A stretch of 64,000 nt of DNA from an uncultured Pelagibacteraceae bacterium (GTDB lineage Bacteria > Pseudomonadota > Alphaproteobacteria > Pelagibacterales > Pelagibacteraceae): assembly GCA_902600245.1 (NCBI GenBank), contig CACKIQ010000002.1, positions 1 to 64,000 of the forward strand, in the 5' to 3' direction. Each line of letters starts with the position of its first letter. Position 1 is the stretch's first letter. Both the position numbers and the translations under genes were made by a program. Shown in pieces: positions 26,329-33,621 of this stretch. The notes under the pieces were generated by a model. That model was not told the origin of the DNA. It saw nothing but the letters and a program-made list of their open reading frames with translations, and did not search any database.

Positions 26329-27369
26329 TTATCTTGCAGGTGGTACGTAAAGAATTCCACCTTTAGTCCATAATTCATTTGGACCTCTATCAGGTAAAAT
26401 TCCAGTGTCCGCTATATTTCTTTTATAACTTTCACCATAGTTACCAACTTGCTTAATAATTCTTAAACTCCACTCATTGTCTAGACCAAAAGCAGCACCT
26501 AACTCACCTTCAGCACCAACCAATCTTTTTACAGCTGGATTATCTGAAGTTTTCATTGAGTCTGCGTTTGCAGAAGTAATTCCATACTCCTCAGCTTCAA
26601 TCATAGCATTTAAAGACCATCTAACGATATCTTCCCACACAGAATCACCTTGTCTAACAACTGGTCCTAAAGGTTCTTTAGAAACAGTTTCAGGTAATAC
26701 GATGTGTTCATCAGGATTAGACATTTTTGTTCTTTGTGCAGCAAGACCTGATTTATCAGTAGTGTATGTATCACATCTACCAGCATCATAAGCAGCTACG
26801 ACTTCATCAGCCTTTTCAAAAGCAACTGGTTCATAAGAAATTCCTTTAGAGTTAAAGAAGTCTCTCATGTTCAACTCAGTTGTTGTACCAATGTTTGTAC
26901 AAGCTGAGATACCATCTTTGAATTGGCTTGTTGAAGTAATACCAGAACTTTTTCTAACCATGAAACCTTGACCATCGTAGAAATTTACACCTACAAAAGT
27001 AAGCCCGATATCAGCATCTCTAGAAAGAGTCCAAGTTGTGTTTCTTGATAAGATATCTATCTCACCAGAAGTTAAAGCTGTAAATCTTTCTTTAGCACTT
27101 AGTGGTGTAAACTTAACTTTGTTCGCATCACCTAGAACTGCAGCAGCTACCGCTCTACATACATCAACATCTATACCAGTCCAATTTCCTGCTGCATCTG
27201 CGTTAGAAAATCCTGGTAGACCTTGAGATACTCCACATCTTACAAAACCCTTCTTTTGAGTGTTTTTAAGTGTTTTAGATTTTTTAGCAGCCATAGTTTC
27301 TGTTGTAAAAGCAAACAACACTGCAACCATAGCAACTAAAGAAGTTAATTGTTTTAAGTATTTAAACAT
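26329..27369 (-). CDS. aapJ: general L-amino acid ABC transporter substrate-binding protein
   Basis: Signal peptide; VRCGVSQGLPGFSNADAAGNWTGIDVDVCRAVAAAVLGD. Confidence 0.94.
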   Translation of the reverse strand: MFKYLKQLTSLVAMVAVLFAFTTETMAAKKSKTLKNTQKKGFVRCGVSQGLPGFSNADAAGNWTGIDVDVCRAVAAAVLGDANKVKFTPLSAKERFTALTSGEIDILSRNTTWTLSRDADIGLTFVGVNFYDGQGFMVRKSSGITSTSQFKDGISACTNIGTTTELNMRDFFNSKGISYEPVAFEKADEVVAAYDAGRCDTYTTDKSGLAAQRTKMSNPDEHIVLPETVSKEPLGPVVRQGDSVWEDIVRWSLNAMIEAEEYGITSANADSMKTSDNPAVKRLVGAEGELGAAFGLDNEWSLRIIKQVGNYGESYKRNIADTGILPDRGPNELWTKGGILYVPPAR

Positions 27370-27390
27370 TATTCTTCCTTTATGTTATTT

Positions 27391-27408
27391 TTATTTGTTA
27401 ACAAATAA
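27391..27408. promoter_or_regulatory. perfect palindrome upstream of aapJ
   Basis: TTATTTGTTAACAAATAA, 18-bp perfect inverted repeat about 20 bp from aapJ start. Confidence 0.5.
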
Positions 27409-27546
27409 TTCAAAATTACTTTTGAATATTTTTAATTTAATCACGTTAGAAATTACTCTTCAAGATAAATTAATTTGTAAAAACAAATTTATAATAATTC
27501 TAGTCAAGTAAAATCTTCTGACAATAATTGGTTAAAATGCAAGAAA

Positions 27547-27623
27547 TGGCGCGCCCTGAAGGATTCGAACCTACGACCCTCGGTTTAGAAAACCGATGCT
27601 CTATCCAGCTGAGCTAAGGGCGC
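27547..27623 (-). tRNA. tRNA-Arg (TCT)
   Basis: Reverse complement GCGCCCTTAGCTCAGCTGGATAGAGCATCGGTTTTCTAAACCGAGGGTCGTAGGTTCGAATCCTTCAGGGCGCGCCA. Confidence 0.95.
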
Positions 27624-30458: not shown

Positions 30459-31814
30459 TTAATTAAATTCTTTTATCCCTAAGCCTTTTAATTTTCTGTG
30501 CAAAGCACTTCTTTCCATTCCAACAAAATTTGCCGTTTTAGATATGTTCCCATTAAATTTTTTTAATTGAATAGTTAAATACTCCTTTTCAAATTTTTCT
30601 CTAGCCTCTTTTAATGGCACAGATAGGCTATTTTCAGCTAAATGGTCATCAAAATTATTATTTTTTAAAGATTCTTTTATTATAGTTGAAATTTTTTCTT
30701 TTGTGTCTGGTTGCAAAATTGCAATTCTCTCTATTAAATTTCTTAATTCTCTTACATTCCCATGCCAGTTATGGTTTAAGATATAATTATTATTCTCATC
30801 TATTTCTAACTCTTTAATTTGATAATTATCAGATATTTTTTTTGAAAAATATTTTATTAAAAGTGGAATATCACTTATTCTCTGATTTAATGGTTCAATG
30901 TTGATTTCAAAAACGTTTATTCTATGAAACAAATCTTCTCTAAAATTACCAATTTCAATTTCTTTTTTTAAATCTTTATTTGAAGAACAAATTAATCTAA
31001 CATCTACTGTAACATCATTACTTCCATTTACTCTCTTAAATTTTTGATCAGTTAAAACTCTAAGTATTTTAGATTGAATATCTAAAGGAATTTCAGAAAC
31101 TTGATCAATCAAAAGTGTACCTTTATTTGCTTTTTCAAGTGCACCATAAGATATAGATCCATTTTCTTTTTCCTCTCCAAACAATTCAAGCTCATACTTG
31201 TTAAAATCCAATAAAGCGCCATTAAGAATGATAAATGGTTTTTTATTTCTATTAGAAGATTTGTGAATTTTTCTTGCTATCAACTCTTTGCCAGATCCTG
31301 ATGGTCCATTTATAAATACTCTACTTTCAGTAACTGAGATTTTTTTTATCTGATCTAATATATTTAAAATATTTTTACTATTACCGATTAATTCATAAGA
31401 TGAAAATAACTTACTCTCGTATTCTTTATTCTGTTTTTTTAAGTTAAAATTTTCAACAGCTCTTTTTACAAAATTTAATAATCTTTCTTGATCAAATGGT
31501 TTTTCAATAAATTCAAACGCACCATTTTGAAGGGACTTAACTGCCATTTCTATATTTGCATGGCCAGATATAATTATAACTGGGATATCTTTATTTTTAG
31601 ATTTAATATGTGATAAAAGTTTTATTCCATCATTATCGCCTTTATCTAATTTAACATCTAGAATTGCAACATCAGGTAATTTTTTGTCAATCTCAGAAAG
31701 TGCTTGATTATAATTTGCTGCCAATCTAGTTTTATATCCTGAGTCTGTTATAAGCTCATTAATGATATTTCTTATATCAGAATTATCGTCAACTATTAAT
31801 ATTTCTTCGCTCAT
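30459..31814 (-). CDS. ntrX: NtrX-type response regulator with degenerate AAA+ domain
   Basis: Receiver VDDNSDIRNI/AILDVKLD; AAA+ GPSGSGKELIARKIH; C-terminal Fis HTH ISKTANFVGMERSALHRKLK; adjacent ntrY. Confidence 0.9.
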   Translation of the reverse strand: MSEEILIVDDNSDIRNIINELITDSGYKTRLAANYNQALSEIDKKLPDVAILDVKLDKGDNDGIKLLSHIKSKNKDIPVIIISGHANIEMAVKSLQNGAFEFIEKPFDQERLLNFVKRAVENFNLKKQNKEYESKLFSSYELIGNSKNILNILDQIKKISVTESRVFINGPSGSGKELIARKIHKSSNRNKKPFIILNGALLDFNKYELELFGEEKENGSISYGALEKANKGTLLIDQVSEIPLDIQSKILRVLTDQKFKRVNGSNDVTVDVRLICSSNKDLKKEIEIGNFREDLFHRINVFEINIEPLNQRISDIPLLIKYFSKKISDNYQIKELEIDENNNYILNHNWHGNVRELRNLIERIAILQPDTKEKISTIIKESLKNNNFDDHLAENSLSVPLKEAREKFEKEYLTIQLKKFNGNISKTANFVGMERSALHRKLKGLGIKEFN

Positions 31815-31815
31815 C

Positions 31816-33597
31816 TTATTTAGTAAAAAATAATTTTATTTTAGCTCCTTCATTTACTGGAATGAATTCTATTTTACCATCATGGTCATTTATAATTTTA
31901 TTCACTATTGACAAACCTAGTCCAGTTCCATTTTTTTTTGTTGTTATATATGGATTTAAAGAATGCTTTACATTATTTTTAAAGTTGCCAAATCCTATTC
32001 CATTATCTGTAATAACTACTATTATTTGGTTATCAATTTCTTTGAGTTCAATAGTAATTTTTTTACTGAAATTGCTATTATTTTCACTTTTTTGCTGAAT
32101 ACTTTCAATAGAATTTTTAATTATATTTAAAAAAACTCTGCTTATTTGCTCTTTATCACACTCTAAAAAAACTTGCTTCAAATCATTTACAAATACTATA
32201 GCTATAGACTTATCTAGCTCATTTAATAATTTTATATTTTCATTAATCAAAATTACTAAATCGTTTTTTCTTAAAGTTGGTTTTGGCATCCTTGCAAAAT
32301 CAGAAAATTCATTAACAAGTTTTTCAATTTGTTTAATTTGATTATTTATTATTTTTAAATTTTCTTGAAAATTTTCTGAATTTTTAGAGTTCAATTCACT
32401 AGCATATTTACTTTTCAACCTATCTATTGTTAATTGTATGGGCGTTAGTGGGTTTTTTATTTCGTGAGCTAATTTTCTAGCTAAACTTCCCCATGCTTCA
32501 TGTCTTTCATTAATAATCAGTTTTTCTTGTTGGTTTTTAAGTTTTTCAATCATCAAATTAAAATTTCTATTTAATTTTTCTAAATCTTTATCTGTTTTAA
32601 CTTCAGGTACCTTTGCATCAAAATTTCCATCACCTATTGAGGCTGAAGCAGAAATCAAATTGTTTATAGATCTAAAAAATCTTGATGAAAATCTAATAGC
32701 TATAGAAATAGATACAAACAATAAAACACTTACAACAATAATGTAAATTATAGCAAATGAAATCTTGATACCAGTACTTTTTTCCTCCACAGTATAATAA
32801 AAGTTTATAGCTTCTTCAGATTCAGTTAAATATTTCGAGATATCTTTATCCAAATATTTTACAACATATAAAAATCTATCTTCAAAATTTTGCAATCTCA
32901 TTATAGCTGCTGAAATATTTTTAGGCGCATTTATTATTTTTAGTGGCCTGTCGTCATCTAAAACTAAATTAAGAGCTTTATCAACTGGAGGTATATAAAT
33001 CTGATCATCTTTTAAAGATGTAAATAATAATTTCTTACTTAGATTTATGATATGTATTTCATCAACATCCCTTATTAATTTTTGCGTATTAAGAAATCTT
33101 CGATATTCAATCTCATCATCATTTAAAAATTTTTTGCTTTTATTAGTATCAAATGCAATTAAAACTATATCAGATTGAATTTTATTTCTTATCTCATCAA
33201 CATAATTTTTCGCAAGTTCATAAGAGTTGTTAACTACAGTAGTAACTTTTTTATCAAAATATTTTTCTATAGCAAAAGAAAATAAAAATAACGAAAAAAT
33301 AGAAATCAAAACTGATGGTATTAGTGTAAATAAACCAAAATATGTTATATATTTTTTGTTAGAATTTAAACCGTCCTTATCTATATCATTTTTAATTGCA
33401 CTTTTGATTTCTATAAAAATAAAAACAAAAAGTGCTCCAAGAAGAATTATGTCAAGAATTAATAAAATCTGTAAGTTTTGATCTGTTAAATTTATAAAAC
33501 CTTTATCAATAAAAGTTAAAAAGGTTAAAAAACCTATCGATAATGTGATAATAAATAATATTATTAGATATATATTTTTTTTAATAAATTCGTACAT
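31816..33597 (-). CDS. ntrY: NtrY-type sensor histidine kinase
   Basis: HAMP, H-box RKLAHEIKNPLTPIQLTIDRLK, N/G boxes (ITDNGIGF, GTGLGLSIV). Confidence 0.92.
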   Translation of the reverse strand: MYEFIKKNIYLIILFIITLSIGFLTFLTFIDKGFINLTDQNLQILLILDIILLGALFVFIFIEIKSAIKNDIDKDGLNSNKKYITYFGLFTLIPSVLISIFSLFLFSFAIEKYFDKKVTTVVNNSYELAKNYVDEIRNKIQSDIVLIAFDTNKSKKFLNDDEIEYRRFLNTQKLIRDVDEIHIINLSKKLLFTSLKDDQIYIPPVDKALNLVLDDDRPLKIINAPKNISAAIMRLQNFEDRFLYVVKYLDKDISKYLTESEEAINFYYTVEEKSTGIKISFAIIYIIVVSVLLFVSISIAIRFSSRFFRSINNLISASASIGDGNFDAKVPEVKTDKDLEKLNRNFNLMIEKLKNQQEKLIINERHEAWGSLARKLAHEIKNPLTPIQLTIDRLKSKYASELNSKNSENFQENLKIINNQIKQIEKLVNEFSDFARMPKPTLRKNDLVILINENIKLLNELDKSIAIVFVNDLKQVFLECDKEQISRVFLNIIKNSIESIQQKSENNSNFSKKITIELKEIDNQIIVVITDNGIGFGNFKNNVKHSLNPYITTKKNGTGLGLSIVNKIINDHDGKIEFIPVNEGAKIKLFFTK

Positions 33598-33621
33598 TTG
33601 AATATAAAAACTACCATATAA

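Follow-up and report, generated by a model that had tools for sequence, protein, structure and literature searches.

What is left for the AAA+ domain of a response regulator to do once contact with sigma-54 and hydrolysis of ATP are both gone? The question is raised by the ntrX gene of the window, a stretch of 64,000 nucleotides from a SAR11 genome of the Pelagibacteraceae. Few regulators serve the SAR11 bacteria, which are the most abundant of the ocean and dominate its surface waters; their reported two-component systems number four, NtrYX included (PMC13198564). In one large SAR11 group, the sole regulator of this type has a naturally fixed change at the ATP-splitting residue. An earlier note on this DNA had seen that this NtrX lacks GAFTGA and has a glutamine in Walker B, and had linked both changes to the lack of RpoN in SAR11. 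The analysis described here is one of sequences, and what it says of biochemistry is conditional throughout.

The ntrYX locus and the identity of NtrX

The ntrX gene (30459..31814, on the minus strand, as are all its features given below) encodes a response regulator of 451 residues (P0001), recognised by its open reading frame, its Pfam domains, the NtrX family model and its structure match. The Pfam matches comprise a receiver, a Sigma54_activat AAA+ domain, an AAA lid and a Fis-type helix-turn-helix. The receiver (Response_reg, residues 5-116, 31467..31802) carries the phospho-acceptor Asp53 at 31656-31658, the Walker A motif GPSGSGKE, assigned by sequence and clade comparison, occupies residues 170-177 (31284..31307), and the helix-turn-helix (HTH_8) spans residues 405-443 (30486..30602); the three elements that had been listed as retained are indeed there. 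So is an intact ntrY (31816..33597, minus strand), a sensor histidine kinase of 593 residues with NtrY_N, HAMP, HisKA and HATPase_c matches in Pfam, which is followed directly by ntrX and then by trkA-like and trkH-like genes, these two names being given by eye on the sequence.

The order of receiver, AAA+ and Fis-type helix-turn-helix next to an adjoining ntrY is that of NtrX. Among 106 families, the NCBIfam NtrX model NF051870 is the best for this protein by a wide margin (536 bits, the next being ntrC with 341); the score lies under the cut-off of 600, which is also missed in 40 class genomes out of the 161 where the model matches. The closest solved structure by sequence is the NtrX of Brucella abortus (5m7n, E 2.5e-115), and a fold search with an AlphaFold model of mean pLDDT 80.4 returns Brucella NtrX (5m7o) as its first match. 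In a tree of sequences selected as NtrX, with paralogues left out, the protein groups with the NtrX of the class. The Walker B Asp-Glu that is usual in NtrX, and that is not a demonstrated requirement of the family, is absent here, Asp-Gln being a variant within it. Taken together, these sequence comparisons are best explained if the window ntrX encodes a genuine, functional NtrX. A profile search of the 70%-complete assembly found a single PF00158 match, NtrX itself, and no ntrC.

Some features of the surroundings deserve mention in their own right. Only 24 bases (33598-33621) separate ntrY from a divergent ispDF-like gene, which leaves little space for two promoters. The trkH-like gene is separated by a tRNA-Arg (anticodon tct, 27547-27623) from the gene of an ABC transporter binding protein (26329-27369, minus strand). 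The latter is preceded by two perfect inverted repeats at 27390-27430, namely ATTCAAAA-GTAA-TTTTGAAT and ATTTGTTAACAAAT, shortly ahead of its start codon. The stretch that holds these repeats is conserved across 58 aligned SAR11 loci, the pattern TTCAAAAN2-6TTTTGAA occurs once more in the assembly, and the repeats are a candidate operator or RNA leader. The published NtrX motif CAAN2-5TTG is found upstream of this neighbouring transporter less often than expected by chance (12 vs 25).

The missing GAFTGA loop and the absence of rpoN

The segment singled out earlier (31090-31200, approximately residues 205-242 of NtrX) does contain the peptide ELFGEEKENGSISYGALEKANKGTLLIDQVSEIP in translation. 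At the place of GAFTGA in sigma-54 activators, alignments put the short loop ELFGEEKENGSISYGALEKA (residues 210-229, 31128..31187), and the codons and the clade comparison give Asp237-Gln238 (GAT CAA, 31101..31106) in place of the Walker B Asp-Glu; both departures from the expected sequence are thus confirmed.

The search for rpoN agrees with the reported lack of RpoN in SAR11. PF00309 had no match in the window's assembly, and PF04552 (the sigma-54 DNA-binding domain) had none in any of 297 family genomes, of which 127 are 90% complete or more. Of 190 class genomes, 144 gave a match in the same PF04552 search, as did E. coli, B. subtilis and Caulobacter, which served as controls. The sigma factors reported for SAR11 are sigma-70 and sigma-32 only (PMC13198564). 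Three marks of a sigma-54 activator were looked for and not found: GAFTGA and the catalytic Walker B Glu in NtrX, and an rpoN gene in the 70%-complete assembly.

The loop has a wider history. Alphaproteobacterial NtrX sequences were gathered at every rank from the genus up to the class, the class sample being partly picked for low-scoring NtrX. They number 275, or 246 if those identical over the aligned columns are counted once, and a GAFTGA-like motif occurs in none of them. Brucella NtrX (5m7n) shares the short loop (ELFGTEMDGGERKVGALEEA) and keeps Asp-Glu, and Caulobacter NtrX has been reported to lack GAFTGA (PMC10274813). As sampled by sequence, the loss of GAFTGA is a trait of alphaproteobacterial NtrX and is not specific to SAR11. 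Since 35 of the 275 loop-less proteins come from genomes with PF04552, the loss of the loop as an adaptation to the loss of RpoN, the tempting inference that the earlier note had drawn, is rejected, and the absence of GAFTGA from SAR11 NtrX is uninformative on that point.

Origin and distribution of the Walker B glutamine

Codon 238 (31101-31103) reads CAA and differs from GAA at a single base. A tree of 137 NtrX proteins, built with the trait columns left out, places the window protein in a clade that has full support; of its 24 rows, 21 have Gln at Walker B, two have His and one has Asn. Among the 95 distinct proteins compared from this Gln clade, 92 have Gln, 2 His and 1 Asn. One member (L097) reads Glu-Gln there instead of Asp-Gln. 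Outside it, Glu is found in 54/54 proteins of the rest of the genus, 29/29 of most other genera of the family and 12/12 of the sister family f2, and three genera (g5, g9, g12) have Asp-Asn in 6/6 (L207-L212). As read from this tree, the glutamine has a single origin, within a subclade of the genus to which the window belongs. The idea that it is SAR11-wide does not hold, since Glu is retained in most lineages, which lack rpoN just the same, and the three genera have Asn. The loss of GAFTGA and the change of Glu to Gln thus have separate histories, one class-wide and the other clade-specific, and cultured relatives are probably to be found on both sides of the Glu/Gln change. A sequencing or assembly error was considered and rejected, because Asp-Gln recurs in independent single-cell genomes, MAGs and single-contig genomes.

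Over the whole tree, the starred branches force at least six changes between Glu and other states; changes on the long class-level branches are less certain. Elsewhere in the class Walker B is also altered to Ser or Asp. A few reduced-genome lineages there show other Walker B alterations, some with Walker A broken, and in three of them (L268, L270, L271), where both motifs are changed, NtrX may have lost ATP binding, to judge by the residues. In the class sample, an altered Walker B occurs in five genomes without rpoN and three with it, and given this split no rule linking the two is claimed. A renewed search for NtrX in 17 good genomes that seemed to lack it turned up one stretch of 29 residues and, beyond that, only receiver domains that belong to other regulators; contig breaks are suspected.

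Conservation of the ATP site

The residues predicted to bind ATP hardly vary across the clade, and the same holds for the receiver Asp. Lys176, Asn198 (31221..31223, the position of the glutamate-switch Asn), Arg298, Arg355, Asp53 and Lys105 are present in 95/95 proteins of the Gln clade, and Arg292, which with Arg298 delimits the arginine-finger region (30921..30941, by clade comparison), in 94/94 with a residue there. It is what a retained site that binds ATP without hydrolysing it would look like in sequence. The AAA+ domain of the clade is under purifying selection as judged by its pN/pS (0.09-0.15, similar to or slightly higher than the 0.05-0.15 of the Glu clade). Fixed differences set the clade apart from the Glu clade at seven positions (8, 52, 172, 238, 246, 345 and 450), and at no such position has it gained an Asp or Glu.

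Position 351, in the sensor II motif WHGNVR (residues 350-355, 30750..30767, by clade comparison), behaves differently. It is mostly Pro in other NtrX, and almost every member of the Gln clade has His, Lys or Gln instead (His in the window, 30762-30764). Such free variation suggests some relaxation of the lid in this clade, and position 299 is also partly relaxed. All 97 distinct proteins without Pro351 have an altered Walker B, and a coupling between the two was examined and rejected, as it is not significant (four independent pairs on starred branches, 4 events against 0 at a background fraction of 0.46) and is not counted as evidence. The parsimony behind the event count is unreliable on the deep, long branches at class level. 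Lys or Tyr also stands at this position in solved structures of NtrC4 and NtrC1 whose Walker B is intact.

Proposed role of the AAA+ domain and rival explanations

Sigma-54-independent action of NtrX is very likely, and to that extent the interpretation first offered stands; the part that made both changes one SAR11 event tied to the loss of RpoN does not. We think it probable that NtrX is here a phosphorylation-controlled DNA-binding regulator, independent of sigma-54, with an AAA+ domain that binds ATP without hydrolysing it and a Gln that was fixed once and kept by selection. The non-hydrolysing, ATP-binding switch that had been suggested is thus the best reading of a Glu-to-Gln change among retained ATP-binding residues. 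From the sequence we infer ATP binding, loss of hydrolysis, a conformational consequence and action with sigma-70. NtrX would control promoters read by the housekeeping sigma factor, with no remodelling of sigma-54; this independence would be old in alphaproteobacterial NtrX, and the Walker B Gln would have been added later in one clade. The domain would still bind ATP through the kept Walker A Lys, sensor II Arg, arginine fingers and switch Asn, and hydrolysis by the Gln238 form would be negligible.

What the amide might do is suggested by analogy with PspF, a sigma-54 activator whose engineered E108Q form bears this very substitution. That form has less than 1% of the ATPase activity and approximately 30-fold tighter ATP binding, keeps its glutamate switch engaged with or without bound nucleotide, and forms hexamers without nucleotide, that is, constitutively (PMC4132715). 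In NtrX, the amide of Gln238 would likewise hold the glutamate switch in the ATP-like, engaged position, an engaged switch would favour one fixed assembly state, and phosphorylation of the receiver would be left as the main switch. The trace of ATPase that PspF E108Q retains counts against this reading. NtrX of HTCC1062 is phosphorylated in vivo in a study that covers Ser/Thr/Tyr phosphorylation and not Asp53 (PMC13198564). A bolder and rather doubtful extension would have a selected amide, Gln in this one subclade and Asn in other genera, lock the ATP-like state. Across much of SAR11, NtrX would then be a scaffold that always carries ATP, that is perhaps pre-assembled and that only receiver phosphorylation switches, a pseudo-ATPase that evolved more than once within the family.

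The glutamine could also be a product of neutral decay, the Walker B Glu having drifted once hydrolysis was no longer needed, with no function for Gln238 itself. The variety of replacements in several lineages (Gln, His and Asn, and Ser or Asp elsewhere in the class), the relaxation at 351 and partly at 299, and the additional loss of Walker A in some other reduced genomes are what such drift would leave behind. The history of the codon speaks against it: in a DNA tree of the clade built without codon 238, there are 13 changes between CAA and CAG, one to His, one to Asn and none to Glu, over members that differ at approximately 0.6 per synonymous site. These 13 synonymous changes against two replacements, with no return to Glu though it is one base away, make Gln238 look kept by selection, in a counting argument and not a codon-model test. 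A truly free site would resemble position 351, and the remaining residues of the ATP site are all kept, so that decay appears unlikely.

Useful hydrolysis might instead persist and matter at sigma-70 promoters, another residue standing in for Glu238. The other residues of the catalytic site are all there, and the loop-less NtrC of Caulobacter needs Walker B Asp235 for growth on ammonium and appears to need both ATP binding and hydrolysis (PMC10274813), which implies that loss of GAFTGA alone does not suffice to make hydrolysis dispensable. However, PspF E108Q falls below 1% with the same residues present (PMC4132715), no substitute acidic residue is fixed in the Gln clade, and this explanation is improbable. 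Canonical activation of sigma-54 through a divergent loop is hardly credible: Pfam does call the domain Sigma54_activat, but the 297 family genomes and the assembly lack rpoN, and GAFTGA is found in 0/275 NtrX. A sigma-54-independent NtrX that binds ATP without splitting it remains the reading we prefer.

Comparison with known systems

The best match by sequence and fold is Brucella abortus NtrX (5m7n, 5m7o, 5m7p), which is approximately 42% identical over the full length and shares the domain order and the short GAFTGA-less loop; it differs in keeping Walker B Asp-Glu and in not being of SAR11. Its structures have been solved with ATP (5m7n) and with ADP. Fernandez et al. are said to have found in 2017 that this protein binds ATP without ATPase activity, and it reportedly neither oligomerises nor hydrolyses ATP despite its Asp-Glu. 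If that is right, Gln fixes a state that the family already had, the surprise is lower, and the effect of Gln238 may be small. A fold search also gives VpsR (7v2b) the same overall fold; VpsR works with sigma-70, and it differs from NtrX in identity (approximately 29%), in binding c-di-GMP and in not being an NtrX. The NtrC proteins of R. capsulatus and Caulobacter are loop-less regulators of the NtrC family that act at sigma-70 promoters, and in R. capsulatus ATP binding is needed and hydrolysis is not (PMC10274813); they are, however, paralogues of NtrX with different loop deletions.

The modelled AAA+ domain superposes on structures of NtrC1 and PspF, among which 3m0e and 4qos are of Walker B mutants. 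The fit to the first of these, NtrC1 3m0e, is good (TM 0.87 by target length); it was solved ATP-bound and is an engineered sigma-54 activator of a thermophile. PspF E108Q (4qnm, 4qnr, 4qos) has the same Glu-to-Gln change with the switch Asn and arginine fingers present, and its action on sigma-54 still requires GAFTGA (PMC4132715). There the change was engineered in an activator that has GAFTGA, whereas in the Gln clade it is natural, clade-wide and borne by a loop-less protein: a laboratory trap mutation that occurs in nature, fixed and apparently selected.
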